The notes beneath the pieces were generated by a model that was given only the letters and a program-made list of their open reading frames with translations, did no database searches and had not been told where the DNA came from. Positions 8,329 through 48,300 of a DNA stretch of 64,000 nt are shown here, in pieces (positions within the stretch are counted from its first letter, which is position 1; every line of letters starts with the position of its first letter). Both the position numbers and the translations under genes were made by a program. The stretch comes from Neelides folsomi (taxonomy: Eukaryota > Arthropoda > Collembola > Neelipleona > Neelidae), in the NCBI GenBank assembly GCA_034687125.1, contig JAQGBZ010000258.1, positions 1 through 64,000 of the forward strand, given 5' to 3'.

Positions 8329-11300
8329 TAGTTAACTTAACACGTAAGAATGTCTGGCTAAACTTGTAAAAATGTAAAAAACATTTTAAATATAAATAAA
8401 ATTTTAGCATTTATGGGTATTGTATTATGTTAAAGTAACTAATAGGAACAGGCAATACTATTACATATATTGTAAGTAGATAGGTAGTAATCTACTTATT
8501 GTTAGTATATGAATAGATACACATACAAGTTAAGTATTGTAAGGCATACTAGAATAGTTCCGCTTAAAATATAAAAATGTGTACATTTCATATGAATGGA
8601 GTATGGAATGATTAAAATTGTCTTGTGGACAATTTGTCATCTTTTATTTATTTACCTTTTCATGCATATTGGCGAGTTAATTGAGCGGATGTGATGAGGG
8701 TGATTTATGGGAGATTTCACACTCGGTCGGACGATGTTGCTCGGTGCACGTGCAGGGCTGTTCATTGTCTCTCTCCCGGAGTGGTCTTGTGAATTCCTAT
8801 GAAATTGATTCGTGAGGGGAGTGTCCGATGAATCCGGTGGGGAGAGAGACGAGGGATAATTGGGGTGACTGTCCCACCCTGTCGGGGTCTCCAACCCTCT
8901 CTGGTCCGTCCGGGTCCGCCCCTCCGACTCTCCCGCTCCCTGCCCATCCAAACCGCATCGAGTGAAAAGTAATAAGCCATTTGACTACCGATGGACCGAT
9001 GCGGGGAGAAGAAAGAATGATAGAAAACAACAAACATTTTCTACCTCATTTCATCTTCATCATATTACAAACAAACCCGAGAGAATTCTCTCAAAACTTC
9101 ACATGGTCGAGATGATGAAACTTGTGTTGTGTGTGCATTTGGGTGGGATGTTCATTGAAGCGTGAAGAAATGGTGAACGGCTTCTTTCTCGGATTCGAAT
9201 TCAAATGAGCTTCTCGGATGATTTGATTTTGAGATTCCTTCTTACTTCTGGCTCCTTTGAGGAAATCCGTAATTTATTGGTTTGAAGAAAGTTCGAGAAG
9301 GAAAAGCCTTGTTCGATTCCTTTAGTATTTTATTTATTTTTTAGACGTCAACCGACATTTTATTCAAAATACAAACTGCGCATATTTTGTATATAAAACA
9401 TTCTATTTTTTAATTAAAAATGTGACAAAATCAATAATTAATAGGAATTACGCATTATTACTTTATTACATTTACACAATATTTATATGTATACCTATGT
9501 ACGTAAAATAAGTACTTATTAATGCTGAAGTATGATTGACTATCTCTTGTTTGTAAGGTCTGACTGACCCCATGAATGAGATTTAGCTATATAAATAATT
9601 TATATTTTTCTCTGTTATATCGAGTTTAATTGAACTTGATTGTTTCAATGTGGTATGGTGGTTTAATATGAATTGGATGGATAGGGCGGATTGAATTACT
9701 TTGGCATATTTCTCATCTCCTTCCACTCCACGTCACACTGCATGTAATCCCACTTGAAGAACCACTCGAGTGCAATTGAGGAGAAACGCGTAGGAGATGA
9801 AAAGCCTCGAAATCCTCATTTAAATCTCTTATACATTTCTCCTATTTATTAGGACACACTCCACGCTGCAATAAGCAATGGATACAAATAAACAAATGTT
9901 TATAAGCAATACATATATACAAATATATGCAAATATAATAGCAAAACCTTATTTAATTGATATTCATTTTTATATTATAAATGCTACTGAATATCAATTT
10001 TATAATTTTGGACGATAGACACTTAATGTTTTTTCATATGAAATTTTTAATTTTCCTCGATAATGTTGATGTTATCAAAGTATTATTTTAGGTGTGATGA
10101 TAATGATGAAGAAATGAAATTGAAAGTTGGGCCATTCAAAGGTGGTGTATTCCGACACGTCTTTGAATTTTATCAACTAGCTCCGAATGAAGTTTCCGTC
10201 CTGGGAGTCGAAGGCGGAGGGGGGAAAGTGGGGCGAATTTGGCCATTTGTTCTCTCGCGGAATGCAATTCCTTTAATTGATGAAAGTTGTAGAGTGAAAG
10301 TGCCATTCGTTAGGAATCTCTCTTTTTCAGTTGATGCAACAATGGGGGAGAATCAAGCGGCTTATTTTTATTGCAGAGCATAAATATGTCCATTGACGGT
10401 CCTTCCACACTTGATCTCAACTTACGTGGAATTCCAAATGGGGGAAATATGTAAATGGAGAAGGACGAGGACGAGGGACAACATTCAAATTTGGCCATAA
10501 TTATTCTTTCCTTTTTATTAGACTCTCTTTACCCTTTTAAATCATGAAGGCGGAAATGTTTTTAAATAAAGTAATTTGGTCCAATACAAGATACAAAAGT
10601 GGAAATTTGAGTAAATAACTTCAATAGTTTAATTTACATAAAACCAAATTGTTCAAATATGTTATAAATCTAATATATGAGGATGCATTTTTAATACATA
10701 GTTGTTAGTATAAAAAATCAAAACAGTTACAATGTGTCAACAACAATCCACCCATCATCATCTGGATTTGGGATGATTCGGAACAGAGGGGGATCGAGGG
10801 CCAAAATGGTCAGTTCATCTGTCTTGGGGATATTTATTGTGAGATGATTTACATATTTCCTTTGTGAACAAGGGGGTAATCGGAGATTGGGGGAAAGAGG
10901 GGCCCAACATTACCAATGTCGAGAGCCAATAATGTCATGAACCGGTGGGTAGGTGAATTTATTAGGAAGCTTCCTCTTTGACACGGGCGCATGAGAAGAT
11001 GCGCACAAAGGGACGACGGTTTAATTGAAATGCCTCAAATTCCTCTCGCTTGCATGCAACAGCCGAATCCCCCTCGTCGGTCACAACACAAAAAACAACG
11101 TTAGGAAAGTTCCCTCATTCACCCACCATCTAATTACTCAATCATTTAATGTCAAAAATACACCTAATGTATTTAGAATCCATCAATATTTAAACACATT
11201 TTCCCACCTTACCTTTTTATCGCGTTATCACATAAAAGTTGTGTTTGATGAATAGGAGAATTTTGATAAATCCTTTTCATGATCGATTTATACGATGTAT

Positions 11301-14061: not shown

Positions 14062-15327
14062 GTTATCTGTACTATAATTTAGGTATTTACCTTGTAAGAT
14101 TAAGAAGGAGAATCTTGTGAATGCAATTGCTTGAGAATAGAGTTGTACTTGTTTACGAATTTAATTAGTTGAAGCAATACATCATGTGTATTATATACTA
14201 GTAAATATAGTAAAGACTGTACGCATATGAAAGCAAGATATATTTTATAAGGTATGTATATTGATATATACTACTTAGGTAATACCTAATAATGTAGCCA
14301 AGTCTGTGGAGGTCGACAAGAGTGAAATTGAGTTTTAAGGAAGCTCGGGTGAGATAATTGGAGAGGGAGGAGATGAAAGGATTCCAAAAGACTAATTAAA
14401 TAAATCCATGTAATGCAATGTATTTAATTAGATGAACTTCTGAAGTTTACCCTCAACAAAATTAATTTCTCCTCATCATGAATCTCTCAGCCAATTACTT
14501 ATCTCATTATACCATCATTTTAGATAACAAGATACCTTATTACTATTATTGCCCTCTTAGTCCGCAAAATTCCATCGGTCTCGGAGAATTCGGGCAGAAA
14601 GTTCTCCATTTTACCAACGCATACTTTATCAATTCACACCGACGAGATTGAGTCAAGACCAGAATAGCTTACCTATTATTATTACATACCTAATTAACTT
14701 TAAGTGCTTTAACAAAATTCTAATAAGTATCAATTTTCTCCCTGAAGTCAGTTTGACACTGAGTCCTGTTGAGTATTAAATACTTATATACGGCTGTACA
14801 GGTATATGCATTATAAATGATTCTCCAATTAATGCTATGGATGATTAGAAGAATAATTAAATTACTGGTTATAAATTTATTTGACTATGAAGACTTTTAT
14901 TTATTTGGTAAATTAGTGCTATTGCCATTTGGATATGAAATTAAAAATATTAGAATCTGAGAAAGATGTTTAAACAAATATCCCTTTTATTCTATTTACG
15001 TGCACCTACAGATACTTCTTATGTTACAATTTCTTCGGATTTCTTCAATTTTTACCCATTTCATCTTTGCCAGAGATTATAATAATAAGAAAAGCAATTA
15101 CGTATGATTCCAATAAAAGTAAAATGTCATTATTCTCATAATAAATATTAATTTTTATTTAATTTATGATAAATATTAATTCATATTTGTAAAACATGAT
15201 GCAGATTTAAAATGTAGATGTATGCAAGTAAGATATCTACTACTAGATTTAATTTCAAAAGATAAACAAGGAGTAGACATTTTATACACACAATATAAAT
15301 TGAAGGTAAAAAAACTAAAGTGGGAAT

Positions 15328-18293
15328 TCAAAAAGGTGAGTGGGAATGAAAAGAATCTCCACTTTTTCTTCTCATCTCCAAGTGAAAGTCTTCGATTGGG
15401 TTGAAAGAAGGCGGAAACTGTCGGGGATTTTCATTATCTGGTGGAGAATTGGGCTTTTGACGATGGACGGCTGAGGTCATCGTCGTTGAACAAATTTCCC
15501 CCATGTTCGACCCTGGTAATGGCGACGACGAACCTCCAAATTCGCTGCTACTTTCTTCCTCTTCTAATAAATCTTGTGATCGTAGGGCTGCCAAGCGCTG
15601 TTGCTGAAGCTCAAGATGTTGTTTGCGCCATTTGATCCTCCGATTTTGGAACCAAACTTTGACCTAACATTGTAGAATTTATCATAAAAGTGTTCATATC
15701 ATATTTAAGTATTATCAAATCATGAGTCCATTTGTTTATTATTATTTAGGTACAATAAGTGCAATTTAGCCAATCGTTCACTTACCTGGGCTTCTGTGAG
15801 ATGAAGGGAAGAAGCGAGATAAAGCCGTTCCGGACCCACCATGTATTGTTGTCGCTCAAACTCCGCCTCGAGTCTCTCTAATTGTTCAGGCGTGAAAATT
15901 GTCCTCACTCGCTTGGCCTTTGCTGCCCGTCTTGAACTCACTGGTGAACACTCGACGGATTTATCTGAAAATCGTCATAATTGAATTGGTTGTTTTTTAT
16001 TCATACAATTCTCTTATATTCTTACTTAAATACTATACATCTGTGGTATGTAATACTGATATATGCTGTTAATTGCAAACTTCAGCTTTTCACTCCCTTT
16101 TAATAAGGACGGTAATAAACCAATTACGGCGCCGTTGTAAAATATAATCAGCCAGATATGTGTATTCCAATGCTCTCTCACATAAGTTAAATATAATTGT
16201 CATCAATTAAAGTTAGTAATTTTACAACCGATCGTTATAACTATTCTTGTATAGTAATTGGAATTGCCTTTGTATGGGAGAATTATTATATCAAAATATG
16301 GTATTCATATGGCCTGTGCAATTTCAATACCCTCATTGTAGTTTAAGAATAACTATAATTGATAACCACAACTATAGTATGTATAGGATTTAATTTTATA
16401 AAATTCTCCCTTTCTGAGTCAGTATAAAGTCATATTTCAAGTTTAATAAATACTCTTACTCGAATGTAGCAAATTGGTTATTAAATTAATAATGTAATTA
16501 ATAAAGAAATATGTATGGTGTGAATTCATCTATCTGACACTAATTACCAACTTCACTGCTATATTTTATTGCAATTTTATAACAAAGATGCTTACCAAAA
16601 GAAAATTAACTTTGTTGCAAAGTTGCAATCTATCATTATTTAATGCAGTTGTAAAAGTGAACTTTCCCCTGGAATTTCCACTTAAAGGTAAAAGCTAAAA
16701 GTTTTTAATATGAAGTAGGATAAAATTCTAATACATTTCAATTATATCTTTAATTTAATTAAAAGTGAATAAAAATAACATTTATTTTAATAAGCCATGC
16801 CATTTCCAAGGATTGCTTTAATATTATTTTGTTAATAAGGCTCCTATTGACACATCTTGTGATTATGCTCGTTGGTATTGTACGGAGATGTATGTATGTA
16901 ATGTAACTATAAAATATAATCCTCTAATTCATAAATACTGATTCCTGATTACCCTTAAGACTGTAAGGATCCATTACCAAAATAAATAAGTAAATGAGTG
17001 TCTCACAAAAAGATAAAAAAAATCCAACCATCTTATATCACCTTTTATAATTAAAAACTCTGGATTTCAGTATTCAGGTCTACACTAAATATAAATATAG
17101 TTAAATACGGGGTTAATACCTTAATACAAACACATAAACCCTTCTTCCTTATAACTACTCTAGATAAAAGTACAAGAATAATTTAAACGATTAACCAATT
17201 CAAAACGTCCCAAACACCAATAAAAGGTAAATAAACTTTTTTTATAAAATAAGTACAACGAATTTTAGAAATGGAACATGACCCACAATACAATATTTTA
17301 TTTACTTAAACAGAACGAATATATATGTGTAAAGTAGTTCGTTATTCAAGTATAAAATGAAAAGTAATGCATATAAATACGTAGGTAGTTGAGTGTTCAT
17401 GCTTACAGGCCTACAAGTACATTTTATTAACATATACCTGTATATGTATGTAATATATATATTTAAATATAAGAAATGAGGATGACGGACGACAAACTTT
17501 AAACGCCAAGTACATTGAAGGATTATATTTTATGATTTTCTTGGGAAAAGTGATTATGTAGGTGTGAGCTTTTTAATGCCGGTACAAAAGAAAAATATCC
17601 TTCTATGGCTACTAATATTCATGAAATAGCAAAACTATTATATGAAAATACTTATATTTAAAACTGTATAATTAATGTTATATTTATCAATAATAAATTT
17701 GTATGTTTGGAGAGATTTCTTTTACCTGAGGATTGGGAGCTTTTATTTTTATTGTTGTTGTTCATGTTGGAAGGGTTGTTGTGTGTCGTAAGCGTCTGGG
17801 AATTTGAATAAGGATTGAATCTCTCTGCATGATTTTTCTTTTCGCACTTCCCATCACCTTTCCAACTGGTCGAGAGATTGATGCCGTTGATTGGATGTTG
17901 GGCCGGTTGGCCGAAATTGGGATGATGATGAATTCCGCCGTGGATTGCTGCTCTGTTCAACCCCAAAAGGGAGTCAATGGTGAAGGATTTGCCGGCCGGA
18001 CCTTTTTTATTCTTTTCCTTGATGAACAATGAGGAATCATCGGAGGGGAAAGAGTGGGAGAGAAACGCAGGCGGAAAGAGAAAATGTGACATCGCGGCCG
18101 CCGCGGATTCAAATGTGCTCACTCCGGGGGATTCTGGGCTTTTCGGCGGGCTCAGGGAATTTCCGTTATTGTTGTTGATGAGAGGAATTTGAGGTCCGCC
18201 GTGTCCGCTGGTCGCAAGGCTCAAATCGAACATCGACGCTACAGAGAGATTGAATGAAGTGAATGGGTAGGGGAATTGAATCGAGTTCTGCAT
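15328..18293 (-). CDS. NOTO: Not/NOTO-family homeobox transcription factor
   Basis: Exon 1 is 18293-17726, exon 2 ends at 15786, and exon 3 is 15663-15328. The homeodomain contains [25 protein letters not shown] and, across the exon 2/3 junction, [19 protein letters not shown]. This is close to vertebrate Not ([19 protein letters not shown]...[14 protein letters not shown]) and less like Emx or Vax. Gln50 and the WFQNRR recognition helix are intact. The intron falls between homeodomain residues 44 and 45, a position also used in related ANTP-class genes. Exon 1 encodes an N-terminal region with FTIDSLLG (about residues 104-111), an EH1-like repression motif shared with Emx/Not proteins, then His- and Asn-rich linkers. 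The C-terminal tail is acidic, then Ser/Pro-rich. The exon 2 start is uncertain. Exon 1 ends with one spare base. The better acceptor (exon starting 15965) is out of phase with that. A weaker acceptor (exon starting 15940) fits and gives about 352 residues. A missed small exon is the other possibility. Confidence 0.9.
15966..17725 (-). other. Intron 1 of the Not homeobox gene
   Basis: A roughly 1.76-kb AT-rich intron separating the N-terminal exon from the homeodomain exons. No domain-like frame is seen on either strand. If the acceptor before 15965 is used, a small extra exon of length 3n+2 must lie here; I could not identify one. Confidence 0.5.
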
Positions 18294-32494: not shown

Positions 32495-35024
32495 ATGTTA
32501 GGAATAAAGATTCCGAGCTCAGTTCTTGAGCTTTTACTCAAAGTAGTTGTAGTGAAGAAGAGGCGAGGTTCTCCACCGCAACCTTCCAACCCAATCAAGT
32601 TCTTCCACTCTCTTTTACAAGGGAAAACTCCTCGGCGGCATCGGCGGGTTTTCTCTACCGACATGAAGAAGAGCGGGAAATTGGGGGATTTTTCCCTCGC
32701 CAAACGAATCTTTTTAAGTGGTGTTGAGAGCGTGAGTCCAACCACTCTCATCCGAAATCAAATCAAATTGACAGATGGACTTCATTTGGAAATTCAACAT
32801 TCAACGTCCATATCTCTCAATCACTACCAAAACTGCTATGTTGTGGGTGAGTTCAACTCATATCATTCAATGTCTAATTACGCTCAAAATGTGCCCATAT
32901 ACCTCCACATATGGACATATTGTATGGACGTATATAATTAAATATATGGGCATGGGTAATTTATATTAGTATATTATGCTTCATGTTGCGCTCGTGCATG
33001 TCCATTTAATTCCTTATAATTTCATTACATCCCTAGCAGTTCTTCATTATCCAATTAATCTGATTCTCTCGTTTAACTCAATTTACCTTTGGCTCCTTTG
33101 AGCCGATCTTCTTTTCTACTATTTTTAACACCTCTGATTAATCTCTCTTTAAATGGGAACTTATGACCTTCAATTATTTAAGTAGGTAAATCCGTGGAGA
33201 ACTCACATTTGCTCCAATATCGTACAGTGCTTATGTTATGAAAGGTCTTTTCAACCACGAGAGCAAAATAGTGAAATGTCGTTTTTAGTAAATTGTGCGT
33301 TTAAACGAAATGATTGAATGAGATTTCATTCGATAGTAATTGAATTTAAGACGAGTTCTCCAGATTACGCTCATTATATTAAATACTAATTACATGTATG
33401 TAATATACAAAGTTAAGTATATAAAACAATATGAGACCATTTTCGGTGTTCTCAATATTTTGTTTTATTTGACTACCTATATGTATAAAGGATAGAATAA
33501 ACACTTGGTGGAAGAAAATATTAAACTAGTGAATCTTGATGTAATATTGTAATAATAATGTTAAATAGGATTCGGGAAGGCTGTCCTTCCAATGGCAGAA
33601 GAACTCTTGCGTATCTTGGGAAGTCGAGTAACGCGGACTGTGCTGAGTGTTCCATTGGGCACACGCCAATCCACAAATCCAAATATTGGTAAATTCCTTG
33701 ATTTATTACTTTAGACGAGATTTGTATTGATTTTCAATTTTAAGTCTGCAGACCAATTTAATTTATTTAATTTTTAACTAATTACTTGATTTAAATGTTG
33801 AATAATAAACAATGGAATTATTATTCAGAGACATTCCGTGGAGCGAAGAACAACATTCCAGACGAAGATGCCGTTGAAGGGGCCAAGAGAATTTTGGAAT
33901 TGACCAATAATTGCAAGGAGGAAGATCTTCTGTTTATCCTCATTTCAGGAGGCGGCTCGGCCTTGCTTCCTTGTCCAAAACCTCCAGTGACATTAGAAGA
34001 AAAGAGTCAGGTCATTCGAGCTTTGTCAAAAGCCGGAGCTCAAATCCTTCACCTCAACATTGTCCGTAAAGAAATCTCTGAAGTGAAAGGCGGCGGGCTG
34101 ATTAGAAATTGCAAAGCCAAGGGAATTTTCTCCCTGATTCTTTCTGATGTTCTTGGAGATCCGATTGAAATGATAGCGAGTGGTCCGACAGTCCCTTCAA
34201 TAACCAATGATGCCCCGCAGGCCATCAAAACATTGAAGAAATTCATGAAAACAAGTGAAATTCCGAACAGTGTCCTCACTTTGTTACAGAACACAAACCG
34301 GAAACTGGAAAGTTCAAAACATCCCCAAGTTTCAAACATTTTGATCGGAAGTAATCGAATTGCACTTGAAGCTGCAGCTGTTGAGGCCAAGAATTCAAAT
34401 CTCATTCCAATCATCCTCACGTCTACTTTGGACGGAGACGCGAACGAAATCGGGGACGTTTTGGCTCACCTCGCCCATTGGACTTCTGAATTTCTCCGTC
34501 TCGGTGATGAAGGGAAAACAAGAAAGGAAATATCCAAAATTCTTGAAACCCTCAAAATCTCTGGAATTAAAGAAACTCTGATGCGAGGACTTGAAAGAGG
34601 AAGAAAAACCAACACGGGCGTTTGTCTTCTTTTGGGTGGCGAAACGACGGTTGTTGTGAAAGGAGAAGGAAAAGGAGGGAGAAATCAACAACTTTGTCTT
34701 TCTACCGCTCTCCAACTTCATCAAATCTACAAAAGCCCATCTGACCCCAATGACCTTGACCTAGGAGAGGAAGGACAAGGGCGGGAAATTACCATCTTGA
34801 GTGGAGGAACAGACGGAATTGATGGGCCGTGTGACGCCGCTGGGGCCATAATCAACCCATGGACTGTTAAAACTGCCAAAAAGGAAGATCTTGACCCCGT
34901 TGTTTATTTGACCTCTAATGATTCTTACCATTTCTTTCAACGGGCAAGCGGCGGTGCTTACCATTTAGTAATTGGTCACACTGGAACAAATGTCATGGAC
35001 ATGGTCGTTCTCCTTGTTCGATAA
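32495..35024 (+). CDS. GLYCTK: Glycerate 2-kinase (MOFRL family), complete, 3 exons
   Basis: Exons are 32495-32846, 33569-33688 and 33829-35024, giving 555 residues (human GLYCTK has 523). The enzyme phosphorylates D-glycerate to 2-phosphoglycerate, linking serine and fructose breakdown to glycolysis. Conserved blocks are all present: VVGFGKAVLPMAEELL (GKA at 120-122), LISGGGSALLP (196-205), PPVTLEEK, LNIVRKEISEVKGGGL, LSDVLGDPIEMIASGPTV, LIGSNRIALEAA, the MOFRL-domain LLGGETTVVVKGEGKGGRNQ, LSGGTDGIDGP, NDSYHFF and GTNVMDM. The first 55 residues are hydrophobic, then Lys/Arg-rich, which fits the mitochondrial targeting known for an animal isoform. A later Met could give a cytosolic form. The start is the first ATG in the open exon, but an upstream in-frame GTG shows the frame stays open for a few bases. 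The large third exon is unusual among the intron-rich genes here. Confidence 0.95.
32847..33568 (+). other. Intron 1 of GLYCTK
   Basis: A 722-base AT-rich GT-AG intron splitting the GFGKA motif codon (phase 1). It holds a weak inverted repeat TGCCCATATA...TATATGGGCA (about 32892-32955) and no other structure of note. Confidence 0.7.
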
Positions 35025-35313: not shown

Positions 35314-35321
35314 TGACGTGA
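35314..35321 (+). promoter_or_regulatory. CRE-like site upstream of the secreted-peptide gene
   Basis: TGACGTGA differs from the cAMP response element consensus TGACGTCA at one base. It lies about 70-80 bases before an AAATAAAAGG (35387-35396) that could act as a TATA element, and about 150 bases before the donor of a likely non-coding first exon (GACCAG then GTATCA, exon end 35466). CRE sites are common in neuropeptide promoters. The assignment is inference. Confidence 0.35.
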
Positions 35322-35639
35322 TTGAACGGAGCTTTCTCTGATTCGTCTGTTCGGTGCGACTGTCACTCGCCCTCATCCCCCACCGAGGAAATAAAAGGTG
35401 GATTCCCAGTTGAACGTCTCACACTCAATCTCTCGCACCTCTCACCTTTCAATTACTCCCGACCAGGTATCATCTTTCTTAATCATTTTCATCATCTGCT
35501 TTCTCTTCAGTCTGGGATTTATTCAAAGAATTTATAATAATTTAAATACCTTCACAATTCAAATGGTGTCATGAAATCTTAAAAATTTATTCATAATCTT
35601 TTAACAGCATTTAAATAGCGAATGTTTTACTTATTATAG

Positions 35640-38600
35640 GAGTAGTGAGAAATACGAAAATTCCAAAGATGATCAATATGAAGACCTTGGTCTTGATGGC
35701 GTTTCTTTCATGTCTTGTCATTTGGCATGTTGAAGGTACGTAACCGATTGTTTCATTATAAATCTTTACGATTCACATTATTTGAGATTGGGAGGTTGAG
35801 ACGTGTCCGGTCTCGATTCTACAACGTGACTCAAATTAATCAAAACCCTATGGAGAAAGCCAAATACAATAAAAAATGCATTAATTACATTTCCCTATCT
35901 TAATACATTAGATGACTTTCTCCATAGAGTTTTGATTTATTTGAATCACGTTGTATTGCAAGAATGACATAATTCCCTAAAGGTTTTCGGGCACAATTTT
36001 ATTGCTTTTTATGTTTATTCACAAGTGTGTTTATTAAAAGATAGCTACAACAAACTGAGACGAGGGCGGAATAATGGCATACAAATTTACATAGTTAAAT
36101 AACCTTTCAAAACCTATCGAATTTTAATATGTAGTAAAATAGAGAAAAAAATTTTCTATTAAACTATATTTTAACATCTTGCTCAAAGTTGCACAAAACT
36201 CTAAACACTCGAGTTTTCTAACAATCTAATAACTTCTGGAGGAAGAGATAATTCTTTATTAATTTTTTTTCTTTTTTCCAAAGTCAGGCTTGAAAGAATG
36301 GGGTCAGAAGATTCAAGTGAGCGTGTAATGTGCTAATCCTATTAATTTTTCTTGAATGGAAAGTTTTTTTGCTGATGAGTTTTAATGGTATCAATGTAGT
36401 AGTAAAAAGGCTACCATCCTTATTAGATCATTTAAAAAATTTTTATTATAATTAGAAAACCCAGAACTTCCATCAAACCCCCATGAACAAATAAGTCTTG
36501 CCTTTACAATAGACTTTTTGATAGTATTAATTTTTTGCTTTTCTAAAGTGCAAATTCTTAAAGCTGTATGATCTAATAAGTTTTGCAATGGTACGCTAGC
36601 CATTGTTTCACAAACTTTCAAACATTCATTTTTTGGTCGACATTCTTGCTTATATTTTTTAATCGAATAATAGGAAGGATATAAATTATGATCCCTTGAA
36701 ATTGCTCCCTGCCTTAATATATTATATGCATTTTTGGTCAAACCTAAACTTATAATTAATTCAAGTGCTTCTTCCTCTGTGTGTCCCTTTTGTTCTTCCA
36801 CTTTGGCACTTACATTAGGAATATGTTTAATGGGCATCGAAATTTTATAATTTGAGGAAAGCCAATCTGCGTTTTCAAGTTTAAATAGTTTTTTATGCCT
36901 ATTTACTTTATTTAGCAATGTTGAGACTTTATAGTTCAATCTGTGGACATCTTTTTTAATTAAAGCTTTGTGCAAGTCAGATACGTGAATTTTATATTGT
37001 GAGAGAACCAATTCAAACAACACTCAATTTTATTATTTGCATTACTTGACAATACTGAAGCCAATTCAGAACTTTTAATAGAGGAATTAACATATTTATG
37101 TTCAAATTCACAAGTTGGACTGGGCAATGTTGGTTGAAAAGATCTTCTTTTCGTTTGTACATTTTGTGAAGGTGTTATATTTCCAGTTACAAAGTATTGC
37201 CATTGTCATCACCCATGCGGTTATCACCTGGAGCCGACAATTGCTCCAAGTCAGGTCGCCGCATGGGAGGCTGGTCCGAATCGTGATCTGTTTTACCGGC
37301 GGCATTTTCTTTATTAGACATTATTTATATAAATTTTGAGCTCACTTTATTTTGTTTTTTATCAGCGAGGTACGTATGGAATATTACATCATACCATCCT
37401 CTTTGATCTAAAATACAAAAATACGCAGAGCTCCGCGCGTTGACAACTTCATTTTTTAACGTGGTTGGCCTTCCACGTAAATATTAAAGTCAAGAGTCCC
37501 AGCACCAATTAAGTTGTGTGGACTATGTTCAATGAACACTTTAAAAGTGCAAAATTGGTTTTCTTTATTCGCTTAATTTTGAGTTTTAAGTAGATTATAT
37601 TTTAAAAAGCTCTTCGCATCTAAAATTTTGTTGAATAAAACTTTCGTATAATATCATTATTTTGTTATCAATTGTTTGATAATTGAAAATGAATCGTGCC
37701 AATTTGGATATTAAATCATTCGATCCTACCTCAGTGTTTTCCAGCTTGCTTTTTAAAATAAGCGGATTTTATTTTCAATGAGGAGCAAATGGAAAGAATT
37801 CCGGGGAAAGGAGAGCTTATTAAATATTCATAGGGGTTGAATTGAATCAAAAGATCAAAACAACCTTCGCATCTCCTTTTCCTAATTGAATAAAGAAAGG
37901 AGGTCTCAGAACTGCTAATAATATTTAACCACCACACTTTACGCCTCATTAACTTCCATCTTTGCAATTGGATTAGGGAAATGAAAACCGTTCACCTTTT
38001 TTATCTTTTATGCAAAGGTGAAATGTCCCAGGCGTTCTCAACACTAATTACATAATTTGCTTTTATTCCTTATCAGACCTATACTTTGACAAGGATGGGG
38101 ATTAGATAAGAGAAAATGGGAATTTAAAGTTAAGGAAAATGAAAAAAATAAGTTTTAATTTACTTAGGACGAAGTTACTTTGAATGGGACGATGAGGAAA
38201 AGAAAGTCGGAGGGGAAGAATTGGAAAATGGGATTTTCGGCCAACGCCTATTTTTCCCTCATGACACGTTCCGAAAAGATGGAGAAACGATGGATTTGGA
38301 CGAAAAACTCTTTTTTCCACCACAAACAATGGCACTTGCTTATAAACAAAAGTTTCCTGGTATGTTTTATTCCATTTTTGATTACTTAATTAATTTGATC
38401 TCCCCTTGTTTGTTCTTTGTTAAGTTCCTACTTGAAAACAATAGCTTAATGCTAGTTAACGTTCTCATGTGGATCCCAAGAGAATTTCTTCATTTGATTC
38501 CTTTAGTTGTCCGTTCCGAATACCTATGATTTGAGTAAACCCATGATATGCATAAAATGCACAGAGAGCAAAAGTCTGCATTGTTCATTGAAATCGAAAC

Positions 38601-38726
38601 TGTTTGTATTAATTAGTTCATTTTGTAGGTCTTCGGAAGATTCTGTCCAAACGGAATCCCAAATGTTTGATCAACTGTGCGAAACTGAACCAAATTCATC
38701 CCATTCAATGCCATTCGCTCTGCTAA
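35640..38726 (+). CDS. Secreted peptide precursor with C-terminal CX3C-X10-CX3C peptide
   Basis: Not recognised. The coding parts are 35669-35735, 38168-38359 and 38629-38726 (118 residues), with all introns in phase 1. A spliced leader is likely: a non-coding exon ending at 35466, and the coding exon starting at 35640. Exon 1 encodes MINMKTLVLMAFLSCLVIWH, a clear signal peptide. Exon 2 encodes an acidic spacer containing LFFPHDT (50-56) and LFFPPQT (70-76), an internal near-duplicate 20 residues apart. Exon 3 encodes LRKILSKR, a dibasic KR cleavage site at 94-95, then a 23-residue peptide with cysteines at 99, 103, 114 and 118; the last cysteine is the final residue. This architecture is typical of arthropod neuropeptide or host-defence precursors. 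The CX3C-X10-CX3C spacing equals the helical-hairpin (alpha-hairpinin) pattern. Function is unknown. Intron 1 is 2.4 kb and carries a mobile-element relic. The frame is supported by phase agreement and the coherent precursor, not by a homologue. Confidence 0.65.
35822..35953. repeat. 38-bp inverted repeat in peptide-gene intron
   Basis: The arms are 35822-35859 and 35916-35953. They match at 35 of 38 positions (CAACGTGACTCAAATTAATC... against its complement) around a 56-base loop. It has the shape of a small foldback MITE or an RNA hairpin precursor. It lies at the start of intron 1 of the secreted-peptide gene. Confidence 0.8.
36391..37023 (-). mobile_element. Degenerate mobile-element-type ORF inside an intron
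   Basis: A roughly 210-residue open frame on the strand opposite to the host gene. Its features are PLQNLLDHTALRICTLEKQK, a Lys-rich middle, and near the end CSWGFDGSSGFSNYNK. From memory, similar blocks (LLDHTAKRI ... WGFDGSSGHSQYKQ) recur in many multicopy uncharacterised invertebrate proteins that behave like transposon products. I cannot name the superfamily. Upstream sequence to about 37322 shows further coding-like fragments on the same strand. The copy looks incomplete and broken, and no terminal repeats were found. Confidence 0.45.
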
Positions 38727-42324: not shown

Positions 42325-45300
42325 TTAGTCCCCGTTGAGGGAGAGCATGAGGTCGAGGGGATGAGTCGGACTTGTCATTCTCTTCACGTAACAAGTTGAG
42401 CTCACGGCGTCGTGGACGGTCGGAAAAATCCGGGCGGGCCGGGCGGCTCCAGAAGAAACGAGTAATTGAAGGACACTCGACGGCCCTCCGCCCACTAACA
42501 CTCCAACTTCCCTATGTTCATAGCTCTTCACCAGGGCCTTCAAACATTTCCCGGCTCCGGGATCAACTGAACTTAGGGCAGAAAAGTCAAAGACAATCCA
42601 TTTGATCTAAATTGAAAAAAAGAATCGATCAACAGAAGTATGTACATCTCTTTTTAACACACGTGAGGAACCAAATATTAAAGTAAGGTTGAATTCATTT
42701 CCCCTGGCTGAAAACATCCTTCAATGAATAAAGCCCACAAACAAACTTCACATTGGATCTCCTCAGTATGAGAAGAAAAAAGAGGCAATCCGACTAATGG
42801 CGTCGTTTCTTTTCTAACTTGCATTTTAAACATCTCACTTCCCCTCATTAAAAGATGACGTTCAATCAGGGCCTGCTTTGCTTATCAATTGTTGAACAAA
42901 TTGACATTCACAATGGAATTGGGTTGGAGGATATTACTACGTAAATAAACGATAGCGACTATTTTTGCCAAGATTATGAGAATAACAACCTTTTTCAAAC
43001 TCTTCCACTGAATTAATCAACTAATTAAAACTCCTGGGAATAATAATGGAATTTTCCTCAGTCTGAATACTATTTAAAGTTTAAGCATAAATAGAAGAAT
43101 TTCGGTGGAATCTTTCATAATTAATGTAATTGTAAGATAAATGAAAAAAACTTACCGGATCCTCAATTTTTCCTCCGCTGCTTAAACTCTCATCATTTGA
43201 AATCCCATCGTTGATCCTTTCCCTGGAAATGGTGTTAACAAAGAGGCCGCGTCCACCAAACATTCCCTGTATAATTATTGGATTTAAATTCCTTTTCAAC
43301 CTTATTTGACTCACCTTTCCTTTCCGCTCAATATACACGTCCAAAGGCACCAACTTCTTGACTCTTGTTATGAAATGCTCAACCGTTGCGAAATTCAAAC
43401 TTCCCACAAATTTGATAATTTTCACTCCAGGAATTTCTTTTGTCTGTAGACATCAAACTTTTATTAAATTTCCATTTGATCAGCATCAGTCATGAATTAT
43501 ATAATTTTAGATATTATTAGGAGATAAAATACAGCTATAATAAAAGTATATAAGGTATGTATTTATTTGTGTACTATTTGGATAATGTATTGATTTGTGT
43601 AAAGAATGGCTATAAAATAATTCATACATTTGCTGAAGTGATATCTACATAAATTCCGGATTCTCCAAAAGCTCCTAAAATGCTCACAGTGCCCTTATTT
43701 GACCTCCAAATAAGGGTCAAGAGTGAGAGAAAAATCCCTACAGAGAGGCCATATTCAATATCGAGAAAAACCGTTGAGAGGAAAGTTGCCATCCAGATGA
43801 ATCCGTTCATAGTTGATTCGCGATACGCCTTCGGGAACTCTGCGAGTTGAACCAACATCCCCTTCAAAGCCACGACGATGATACTTGACAAGATACACTG
43901 TTAAGTTCAATTAACCAATTTACAAAATGAAATAATGTAAATATATGTCTTTAGTTATAGTAGATTTAGTCGAAATTGAGTTTTCTTGACATTGAAATCA
44001 TATTGGTATTCTTACGAGAGGAAGTGACTCGAAAAATGGACCAATCCAAAGAAGGACGAAGATGATGATTGAGCAAGAGAAAAAACTGGCCAATTGTGTC
44101 TTTCCTCCTACAGAGTCTTGGATGACGCTCCGAGAGAGCGAAACGGAAATGGGAGCACAGCTGAAGAAGCTCCCAACAATATTACTCGCACCCTGTGTAA
44201 TAAATACATACACATGAATTAGTTAATTCAATTATTACTCCCAGCCCGCCCACTCTCTAAGGTTGAGATGATGAATTTTAGTAATATGATTAATGGGCTC
44301 ACTTCTGCGATTAGTTCTTGATTTGCATCAATTTGATAATTATGCTTCGTGGCAAATATCTTACACATTGAAATTGAAATTGCATATGCCACCACTCCAA
44401 TGATGAACCCATCAACCAAAATGTCAGGGATGATGTCAAGTGGCGTTAGCGTTGGCTTGGGAAGTCTGGAAAACGATTTAAATTGAAATTAATCCAATGC
44501 TTCGACACCTCCGGCTCCTCAATAAACAAATGTTCACAATTTTCCATTTCAATACCCTGTGGGAATGTAGTTGATGATGCTGACGTCGAATTTAGTCTGC
44601 ATACCCCAATAACGAGAGACAAGGGTTCCGGTCACAATTGTAATCAACTCGACGGGAATCGGGAAAGGGAGCTTTTTGCTCACTTTGGCCTGTGTGGAGT
44701 TCAAAGAGTTAAACTCAAGATCATTTGAGCTGTCATTGGGCTTTTGATTGTTAATTCCCTTTACCTTGATTATTTCATTGTATGTCACTAGGATTAAGAT
44801 TGTGATGAGGGACACAATGACTGCCGTAACGTTCACATTTCCTATGTTCTTCGAAATGTCGATATAAGTCTGGAAATTAAAAACGTAGCATATTTTTCAT
44901 TAATCCATATCCATTTAACATTACACTGTAAATGAGAAACTGATTTTATCAGATAGTTAAAGAATTGAAAGATTGAAACTAACAAGGAGGATTTTGAACA
45001 TTCCACTTCTCTTTGGAATGGAAAGGCCTAGGAGATTTTTCACTTGTGAAGTGAGAACGTGAATTGCTGCTCCTGTCGTGAACCTATTAATGAATAATTT
45101 CTCATTTAGTTCATCTTAAAAGACAGGTGAATTATTGATTTGAATTTTCTCACTCACCCGCTCACGAGCTCCGTTGATAAGAGAAGAGAAAGAAACCCCA
45201 TGCGAAACATCCCGAGGAAAACCTAATTTAGAAGTCAATGCCATTGCCAATTATATTACAAGTATTACATGGATTCCCAAAATATGGTTCACATGGGATA

Positions 45301-48300
45301 TGTTTTATGCACAAGCCTAATAATTATGTGAAATTGTCTTATATTATATTTGAGAGCAATTAGAAAGGTAAATTGAGATGAAAGATTGAACTACAATTAA
45401 GGAAATTCAATTACCAATGCTGTTAAAAGCTTTGACTAAAGTGCATAGGTCATGATTAATAATGTAAAAGGGTCATTAAGAAAGAAGATCTTCACCTGCC
45501 AGAATCCCACAACTAAGGAGATGGAAGTAGCAATTTGAACAATGTTATAATCAGGTTTGCTATCACCGCCCCCACGATAATAATGTTTTTCAATGCTTTC
45601 AATTGAACTTAGGTCAACGAAAGTCATATTGGGATTATTTGCCAATCCAAGTGCCTGATATTGCTCCATTTTCTCAATTGCTACTTTCCCCGTCATAAGG
45701 CAAATGACAGCGAAAGTTCCTATGAATGTTAAAAAACTAATTTTAGGTTTGTTGTTCAACCTAAAGATAAGTCTCCAAATAGGAGATGAAAAACCTACCC
45801 ATTGACACATGTCTCGACGTTCCCATAATTGCGTAGATGATGACTGGGAAGAACGCCATGTAGATTCCAACAATAGGTGGAAGATTTCCGAGCAGTGCAT
45901 AAGCCATTCCTAAATATTTCATTAACATTTTTATTAATTCGATTTGTCATTAAAATTGGTCATTTTCATTTAAATGTTTCATTTTTTCCCAAACCTTGAG
46001 GTATTTGCATGACGGCGATTGTAAAGCCGGCAATGAGGTCGAATGTCACATTTTCCCTCCATTTGTACTTTGGTAGCCATTGAAGAATGGGGAGTAAAGA
46101 AAAGACGATTCCTTGGAAGGAAACTTTTTTGCAAGTTTTCTTCGCCCCCGCAAGGAAATTGCTTTTGCCTGTATTTAAAAACCGTTTGAAAGAGATTCAG
46201 ATACCCCGCCGTTGGCCTTGCTTGTATTATCGCAAACAACCATACACACCTTCACTCATTCATTCATTCATCATTCTGATCAACAACATCATTCAATCTT
46301 TGCAACAACATCATTCAATCTTTGAAAAATCCTTCAAAGATGCTCTCATTTATTACGCTCATTTGATCCTAAAATCCTAGCACATTCTTGTAATCGTATC
46401 TGTCTTATGTAGGATTATTTGTTAATTTGTAGGCAATCCTTTTTACATCTCCCAATGTCATTTCGTAATTAAACAAAGATGATGATGGGAGAAATGGGAA
46501 AATTGGGAATAGTTATTTCCTTCATTTATTTGACTGGGAGTATTGGATGAACCAAGAGCGGAAAGATGAAAGGGCATTTACATTAAGTATGTGTGGAAGT
46601 CGACGTCAGGAGGCTTTATGTCAACAATGAAGGAATTATTGCTTTCCGATTATCATGACAGGGAGAAGTGATATTTATTATTATTATTATACAAACTGCC
46701 TAACAATAATTTTGGTTCAACAACATTTTGAGACTCAATTGGGTATTGTGTAACTGGCATTTAAACAACATTAACAGATAGAGATGAGTCAAACCCATAT
46801 AGAAAACCAATTAGAATTATATAAGCATGAGTATTTGTGTGTGTGTACTTTAATTGTATAATTGTGTGTAGCGTTCAAGTGCCAATGAGATTATCTCTCA
46901 CACGCAAGTTTACGCGTTTTGAACTCATCAAGGCGACTTGAAGTCTCATTTAAATACAATATCTCAATTAGATATCTCAATATTATTAATCTGGAATTTT
47001 AAATGGAAATATTTTGATTTTTTATATCTATCTACTGAGCTGTACATTACTTTCTATTATTGATGATGAGAATTTAAGAAGGTCAAGAGCACTCGGAATT
47101 TACTTGGATTTTTATTCTCACTTATCTTTCATTTTTTATCAAATGGCCTATCAAATTCCAATTTTATGGAGATGGAAATAAACGAGCATTCTTCTTAAAT
47201 CATATTTTTAGGGATTATAATACCCTGTTTGGGAATTTAGAATCATGGTGTAAAATGATCAATCTTCTAAACCTTCAGTAGTTGGAAGTTAGGAACCCAA
47301 TTAAAAATAGTCAAGATTACATGATTGGTTATAACTTACATTTAGTTGGAAAGGTTATATGTTATGTAAATGTGTGTTATTTTAAGATTCCTTCACGTCT
47401 GACTTGTGAGACAAGAATGATTGAAAAAAATCCCAATTGCATAATATGAAAAATATTAACGAGAACTTCCTCAAACAAATAATAATTAATCTGTGTTACG
47501 TATAATAATGAAATAATGGCCACCATAGACCTAGATAAATACGTCGTACATTATTAAATGAGGAAAGTTTGGTAAATAAAAACGTGGATTTGAAGGAGTT
47601 GAATTTGCAAAAAAACCATTGGAACAACGCACATATTAAATAAATATTTAAGGCTTATGTCTGAATTTATCCAAAAAACAATATCCTTGTCATTGGAATG
47701 AAACTTGAAACAATTTAAAAATAATGACGCAATTTAATCTTACCGCTCCGGGAAAATATCTCTCCGTTCACTTCGCTTTGATTCAATACTGGCCTATTGA
47801 TTGTGATGTTTGTGGAGGATTTGGGGGAATCTGAGAGGTGATCATTATAATGGTCCATTTTGGGCTCTTCGGGTAATTCGGGTTGAACAAGTCTGGCTTG
47901 TTCCCGTGCGTCTGCTTCGTCTTTATTACCAAGACACGCCGAAAGCCGCCTAAAAACAATTATATTTTAAATGAGGTTGTAGTTAAAATTTTTATGAAAA
48001 TGGTGTTTTTAGCTCTTTTGGAAATTTTTTGGGAAGAGGAATTGGCTTAAGAATGTGTAAACGGAAGTTGGTTAAAAATAAGACGAAAAATAATGACCAA
48101 AGGTCGTCGTGTCATCTGACCTTAGATGCTTCCTCTATTCTTACTTATACAATAATGGTAGTACGAGTAAATGAGTTAGGAAATGGAATGGGTTATGGTA
48201 GCGAATAGTGGTATAGGACTTGGTGTACAAAACGACTGTGCAAATGAAGTTAATTGGGTTTGCGGAAGTTGGAAAAAAGAGCCGAAGATGATGGTCGAGT

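Follow-up and report, generated by a model that had tools for sequence, protein, structure and literature searches.

Does a set of short open frames in a springtail contig amount to a gene for a secreted peptide and, if so, what kind of peptide would it make? The window examined here, i.e., the whole stretch of DNA that was analyzed, comprises 64,000 nucleotides of Neelides folsomi contig JAQGBZ010000258.1. A first-pass annotation had proposed that it carries a gene for a cysteine-hairpin peptide, either a neuropeptide or a defense peptide, and that interpretation is partly supported as a whole. The reading favored here, at a probability of roughly 0.6, is that the gene is one of at least two springtail genes for secreted signaling peptides, i.e., peptide hormones or neuropeptides.

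Gene Structure and Precursor Layout

Reading the window and translating its exons yields a precursor of 118 residues, encoded by three coding exons on the forward strand. All coding-exon junctions are GT-AG, both coding introns are in phase 1, and the frame stays open throughout, which confirms the exon arrangement put forward earlier. Upstream of the gene are a CRE-like TGACGT (35314–35319, forward strand), which is a single six-base site, and a TATA-like ATAAAAGG (35391–35398, forward strand) situated about 75 bases 5′ of the first donor. Because signals of this sort are short, both count as weak evidence. A probable non-coding first exon (35420–35466, forward strand), read from the sequence and with a guessed start, would end at the donor GTATCA at 35467. 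Thus, the CRE-like site of the first-pass annotation is present, while the non-coding first exon that accompanied it is plausible only.

Exon 2 (35640–35735) is coding from the ATG at 35669, contains a second in-frame ATG at 35678, and ends in the phase-1 donor GTACGT. It likely encodes the signal peptide: assessed by eye and from its hydropathy, the N-terminus of the precursor, MINMKTLVLMAFLSCLVIWHVEG, is hydrophobic and offers a plausible cleavage point. Exon 3 (38168–38359; phase 1-1; donor GTATGT) encodes an acidic propeptide in which the doubled LFFPxxT motif described previously was found as RLFFPHDT and KLFFPPQT. Such a doubling could denote a separate processed product, or could be due to chance. 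Each copy is preceded by a single basic residue, and the motif is absent from the propeptide of the second gene introduced below.

The coding part of exon 4 (38629–38726) begins with a basic linker, which separates the acidic propeptide stretch from a dibasic KR (38649–38654; residues 94–95) that is a putative cleavage site. This is followed by a predicted mature peptide of 23 residues, NPKCLINCAKLNQIHPIQCHSLC (38655–38723), and a TAA stop codon (38724–38726). Translation of the exons reproduced the cysteines noted earlier at precursor residues 99, 103, 114 and 118, in the arrangement CX3C-X10-CX3C. The last 11 residues, QIHPIQCHSLC (38691–38723), are referred to here as the core. The peptide lacks a C-terminal amidation signal and ends in cysteine, which is an unusual last residue for a neuropeptide; both points speak against that role.

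Several other loci are found in the vicinity. Within the intron at 35736–38167, the minus strand has an open reading frame of 210 amino acids (36391–37023) that resembles a fragment of a transposable element. Portions of it recur at 40–61% identity on contigs C131, C710 and C297, and it has no Pfam match above the cut-off. A piece of a glycerate kinase-like gene (33795–35024, plus strand; DUF4147 and MOFRL) ends ~290 bases before the CRE-like site. On the minus strand are a piece of a sulfate permease (44549–44896; PF00916), two frames (43081–43452 and 45436–45909) that may share the sulfate permease gene and that have no match above the cut-off, and the end of a homeodomain (15328–15663), which scored below the Pfam cut-off.

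Evidence for a Working Gene

The strict pattern KR-x3-CX3C-x10-CX3C-stop occurs once in the six frames of the window and not once in 15 Mb generated by a first-order simulation of the window's dinucleotide frequencies. A looser form of the motif appeared twice in the same 15 Mb, which corresponds to ~10 occurrences per genome, and the loose pattern by itself therefore proves little. With respect to codon usage, exon 3 scored 13.3 bits, with the predicted frame ranking top of six. For comparison, 309 overlapping segments of intron taken in three frames gave 927 combinations, of which nine were open, with a best score of 3.2 bits. The GC content of exon 3 also exceeds that of the introns on either side (0.417 vs. 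0.317 in the preceding one). In exon 2, the predicted frame ranked top of three, whereas the coding frame of exon 4 was not favored (1.8 bits vs. 3.2 in another frame). Since the codon model is small, having been trained on a piece of one neighboring gene and part of a second, its results are regarded as supportive only.

That these exons are not a working gene, and represent chance open frames or a decayed copy instead, is scarcely credible. Such an explanation could draw on the codon result for exon 4 and on the repeated, transposon-like frame lodged in the long intron. It is opposed by the canonical splice sites and open frames, by the absence of the strict motif from the simulated sequence, and by the second gene and its signs of purifying selection, which are described next.

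A Related Gene on Contig C61

When the genome (75.1 Mb in 840 contigs) was searched with the window precursor, four matches were obtained: the three exons of the window and one match on contig C61, which covered residues 93–118 of the window precursor at 65% (E = 2.4e-4). The last 25 residues of exon 4 have their homologous counterpart in the final exon of this second gene (G000:C61:15398–15516). A reciprocal query of the same genome with the C61 peptide matched only C61 itself and the window. A query with the reversed sequence gave no matches in the genome, which is a weak control in a search that needs a first-look candidate. Queries with arthropod PDF and AST-C sequences, intended as positive controls, likewise failed to match anything in the genome. 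Protein searches of this genome are therefore weak for short, divergent peptides, and the count of two genes is thus a lower bound.

The predicted precursor of the second gene has 171 residues and is assembled from a candidate signal exon (9542–9587; MKCFLLFIALIHLIS), a predicted propeptide exon (14931–15281) and a predicted last exon that contains KR-x3-CX3C-x10-CX3C-stop. Among the candidates in the 14.9 kb of upstream sequence scanned, this signal exon ranked highest, and it is itself a prediction. Its donor agrees with the consensus at seven of nine positions, compared with six for the next candidate, and an acceptor-like AG was seen by eye 47 bases 5′ of the candidate start codon. The two genes agree in intron phase (phase 1) and in having a propeptide exon that is symmetric (1-1), with a length divisible by three. 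In both, KR is followed by three residues, the first cysteine of a CX3C-x10-CX3C frame and, after the last cysteine, an immediate stop codon. With two disulfides, the two mature peptides would have average masses of about 2587.1 and 2609.1 Da.

The COX1 protein of this genome places the animal among springtails, perhaps the neelipleonans. Its top match, at 93%, is a metagenome protein whose differences, judged by eye, seem to stem mostly from translation under another code. The 36 named clusters that rank highest carry springtail names, two of them under the broader labels Metazoa and Hexapoda, at 79–82% identity, ahead of a beetle at 77%. In a tree of 26 COX1 sequences, made up of the one from this genome and 25 selected among the 120 listed matches, a fully supported branch sets it and the springtails apart from seven insects, and it stands beside the neelipleonan Megalothorax with modest support (84/90). 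One further feature of the assembly concerns its mitochondrial contig (G000:C742), in which the protein genes follow the ancestral arthropod order. In Pancrustacea, a tRNA-Leu gene usually lies between COX1 and COX2. Here, only ~37 bases separate the two, which is too few for that tRNA.

Conservation and Selection

Across KR and the mature region, 17 of 25 residues are identical in the window and C61 genes. The dibasic site is kept, as are 15 of the 23 mature residues and every one of the 11 residues of the core. The signal and propeptide regions of the two genes have no real similarity, with a best E of 0.37 in a single pairwise comparison. Hence, for these two genes of one genome, the mature peptide is more conserved than the propeptide. 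The peptide is itself unevenly conserved. Among its first 12 codons, the encoded residue is kept in only four (P, C, L and C), while the last 11 codons contain five DNA differences, all synonymous and none non-synonymous. With 23% of possible changes being synonymous, five of five would arise by chance with a probability of ~0.0006, assuming unconstrained, independent changes and transitions weighted double. In an ungapped comparison, the 30-base block of the core has a DNA identity of 0.87 vs. 0.20–0.43 for 20 other 30-base blocks, and the low identity outside the core indicates that the duplication is not recent.

As read from the sequence, then, selection acts on the C-terminal half of the peptide, although a comparison of just two genes from a single genome makes that conclusion tentative. 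The pattern of conservation places function in the cysteine frame, above all in the core.

In families of toxins and defense peptides, the signal and propeptide regions usually stay constant and the mature part diversifies. A precursor that holds its C-terminal half constant and is otherwise free to change, on the other hand, looks like that of a receptor ligand. With a frozen mature C-terminus and a changed propeptide, the two genes thus favor a secreted signaling peptide, or receptor ligand, over a toxin or defense peptide, and they tip a choice that the first-pass annotation had left undecided.

The chief rival is nonetheless a defense or channel-acting hairpin peptide, either antimicrobial or with a kappa-KTx-like scaffold, made as a signal peptide, propeptide and cut peptide. 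It has several points in its favor. For example, CX3C-Xn-CX3C also follows a signal peptide and propeptide in five scorpion kappa-KTx precursors, several of which have a KR cut (PMC11722136, Table 1). The predicted structure is a helix-loop-helix model, and a pI of 8.5 is predicted for both mature peptides. Against this explanation, the frozen mature C-terminus and wholly changed propeptide are the reverse of the usual toxin or defense pattern, and searches of the PDB returned no relative. In addition, the available text of a survey that reported five antimicrobial families in five Collembola describes none with the CX3C-x10-CX3C pattern (PMC10051947). That survey was homology-based, and its authors suspect that more antimicrobial families exist. 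On balance, a defense or channel-acting role is considered unlikely.

Searches for Relatives

Neither precursor matched any family in Pfam, and exon 4 returned nothing at E ≤ 10, under filters that drop most weak matches. Of note is that known neuropeptide families need not all have a Pfam model. No family was matched by either precursor in NCBIfam, which has little weight as a prokaryote-oriented library. In a database of 5.8 billion proteins, including UniRef and NR entries, a search with the precursor gave two candidates, none at E ≤ 10, and the alignment of exon 4 gave no candidate sharing three words. This search requires three shared five-residue words and also restricts length. The precursor therefore fits none of the families that could be tested in Pfam, NCBIfam or the protein database, in line with the first-pass annotation, which had assigned it to no family.

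Other sources were similarly silent. A DNA pattern for the core was absent from viral contigs, a full-text search turned up no paper containing the letter strings of the core, and in literature searches no listed title or abstract opening pointed to the peptide. A PDB fold search, in which small peptides are hard cases, gave one meaningless match (E = 8.9), and a second look with one chain gave none. A PDB profile search gave two matches, to saxiphilin and a ribosomal protein, both non-significant. Most neuropeptide families are widely conserved. The apparent lack of a relative outside this genome, within the limits of these sequence searches, would thus count against the peptide-hormone reading.

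The saxiphilin match raises another explanation, namely that the product is a small protease inhibitor, either alpha-hairpinin-like or the remnant of a thyroglobulin type-1 module. Saxiphilin was the best PDB profile match, having C-x10-C stretches and one HPVQCH (E = 0.15 for the whole sequence; best stretch i-E = 9.1), and the matched stretches are presumably thyroglobulin type-1 repeats. Moreover, one plant alpha-hairpinin inhibits trypsin according to PMC7191063. The saxiphilin match is not significant, however, and Pfam reported nothing for exon 4 even at the permissive threshold given above. When the genome was scanned with PF00086 at E ≤ 10, with scores given to first-look candidates only, 18 matches were obtained, none of them to either gene. 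The thyroglobulin type-1 module also has a CWC part, and this is missing from the peptide. An inhibitor is accordingly judged improbable, and its thyroglobulin remnant version is not supported, given the negative Pfam and PF00086 results and the non-significant PDB match. As a separate observation, seven of the 18 thyroglobulin type-1 matches form a cluster at about 96380–104909 of G000:C88.

A still less probable proposal is that the peptide belongs to one of the known neuropeptide families of hexapods and has diverged strongly in springtails. The elevenin and CNMamide families have two cysteines. PMC4770511 lends the proposal some room, since it reports elevenin and CNMa as missing in Collembola and some collembolan peptides as unusual. 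The springtail peptide, however, has the four cysteines of CX3C-x10-CX3C rather than two, and it has no Pfam or protein-database match. Membership in a known family is very unlikely on these grounds.

Predicted Structure

AlphaFold2, supplied with the two-sequence alignment, placed helices at model residues 16–24 and 30–36 (PKCLINCAK and PIQCHSL). The best of five models had a mean pLDDT of 69.5 (~73–81 over the peptide) and a pTM of 0.37, with the other four at 58–63. Disulfide geometry was not seen in the model. At this moderate confidence, the model is consistent with a helical hairpin, short of proof. The first-pass annotation had compared the peptide to alpha-hairpinins and kappa-hefutoxin. 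The likeness lies in the cysteine spacing and the two-sequence model, and kinship does not follow from it. PDB sequence and fold searches, which are hard for small peptides, found no such relative, a weak negative. Resemblance to alpha-hairpinins may instead lie in a similar scaffold, suggested by the cysteine spacing and the model, kinship aside.

Proposed Role of the Peptide

The precursor layout, the cysteine pattern, the second gene and the selection on the core can be read from the DNA itself; from these we infer that the product is secreted and cleaved, how its disulfides pair, how it folds and that it binds a receptor. In the favored reading as a secreted signaling peptide, the signal peptide would direct the precursor into the secretory pathway, where a prohormone convertase would cut C-terminal of KR. 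The released peptide of 23 residues would fold as a helix-loop-helix held by disulfides, probably C1–C4 and C2–C3, and its invariant end would bind a receptor on the cell surface, most probably of the G-protein-coupled type. Single-copy peptides such as AST-C, CCHa and trissin, which PMC4770511 lists for non-pterygote hexapods, speak for this reading. These peptides carry cysteines. At about even odds, the two genes represent an undescribed family of arthropod peptide hormones that folds as a helical hairpin and is so far known from one springtail alone. Its two old paralogs would keep an identical receptor-binding tail, and the peptide would be a body-made counterpart of a scaffold used in venoms and plant defense.

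If real, such a family would contribute a signaling peptide near the base of the hexapods, and it would supply a candidate ligand for orphan receptors, as well as an example of the CX3C-CX3C hairpin that comes from neither venoms nor plant seeds. A neuropeptide survey of 24 non-pterygote hexapods, among them springtails, searched with known insect peptides and so could hardly have found families of this kind (PMC4770511).

Comparison with Known Peptide Systems

Single-copy cysteine neuropeptides consist of a signal peptide, a propeptide, a dibasic cut and one cysteine-bridged peptide. The springtail gene shares this general layout with AST-C/CC, trissin, elevenin, CCHamide and CNMamide, families named for non-pterygote hexapods in PMC4770511. 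It differs from them by its four cysteines in CX3C-x10-CX3C, and also by the absence of an amidation signal and of any database match. Compared with thyroglobulin type-1 modules, there is a common C-x10-C with HPxQCH in the core, whereas PF00086 does not recognize the peptide and the CWC half is absent.

The CX3C-Xn-CX3C motif recurs in many organisms, as noted in PMC11722136. The scorpion kappa-KTx peptides described there (the kappa-hefutoxin group, CS-alpha-alpha) resemble the springtail peptide in this motif, in the two helices of the model and in the order of signal peptide, propeptide and peptide. The cysteine pairs are spaced by 10 residues in the springtail peptide vs. 6–9 in the five kappa-KTx precursors of Table 1. 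Unlike kappa-KTx, the peptide comes from a springtail, shows no sequence or fold match to that group, and has a conserved mature part with a variable propeptide. Plant alpha-hairpinins likewise have paired CX3C motifs and, as is likely for the springtail peptide, a helical hairpin. The precursors described in PMC7191063 contain multiple modules, with vicilin fusions in some, and introns are lacking from several of their genes; the springtail, in contrast, makes one peptide per intron-split gene.
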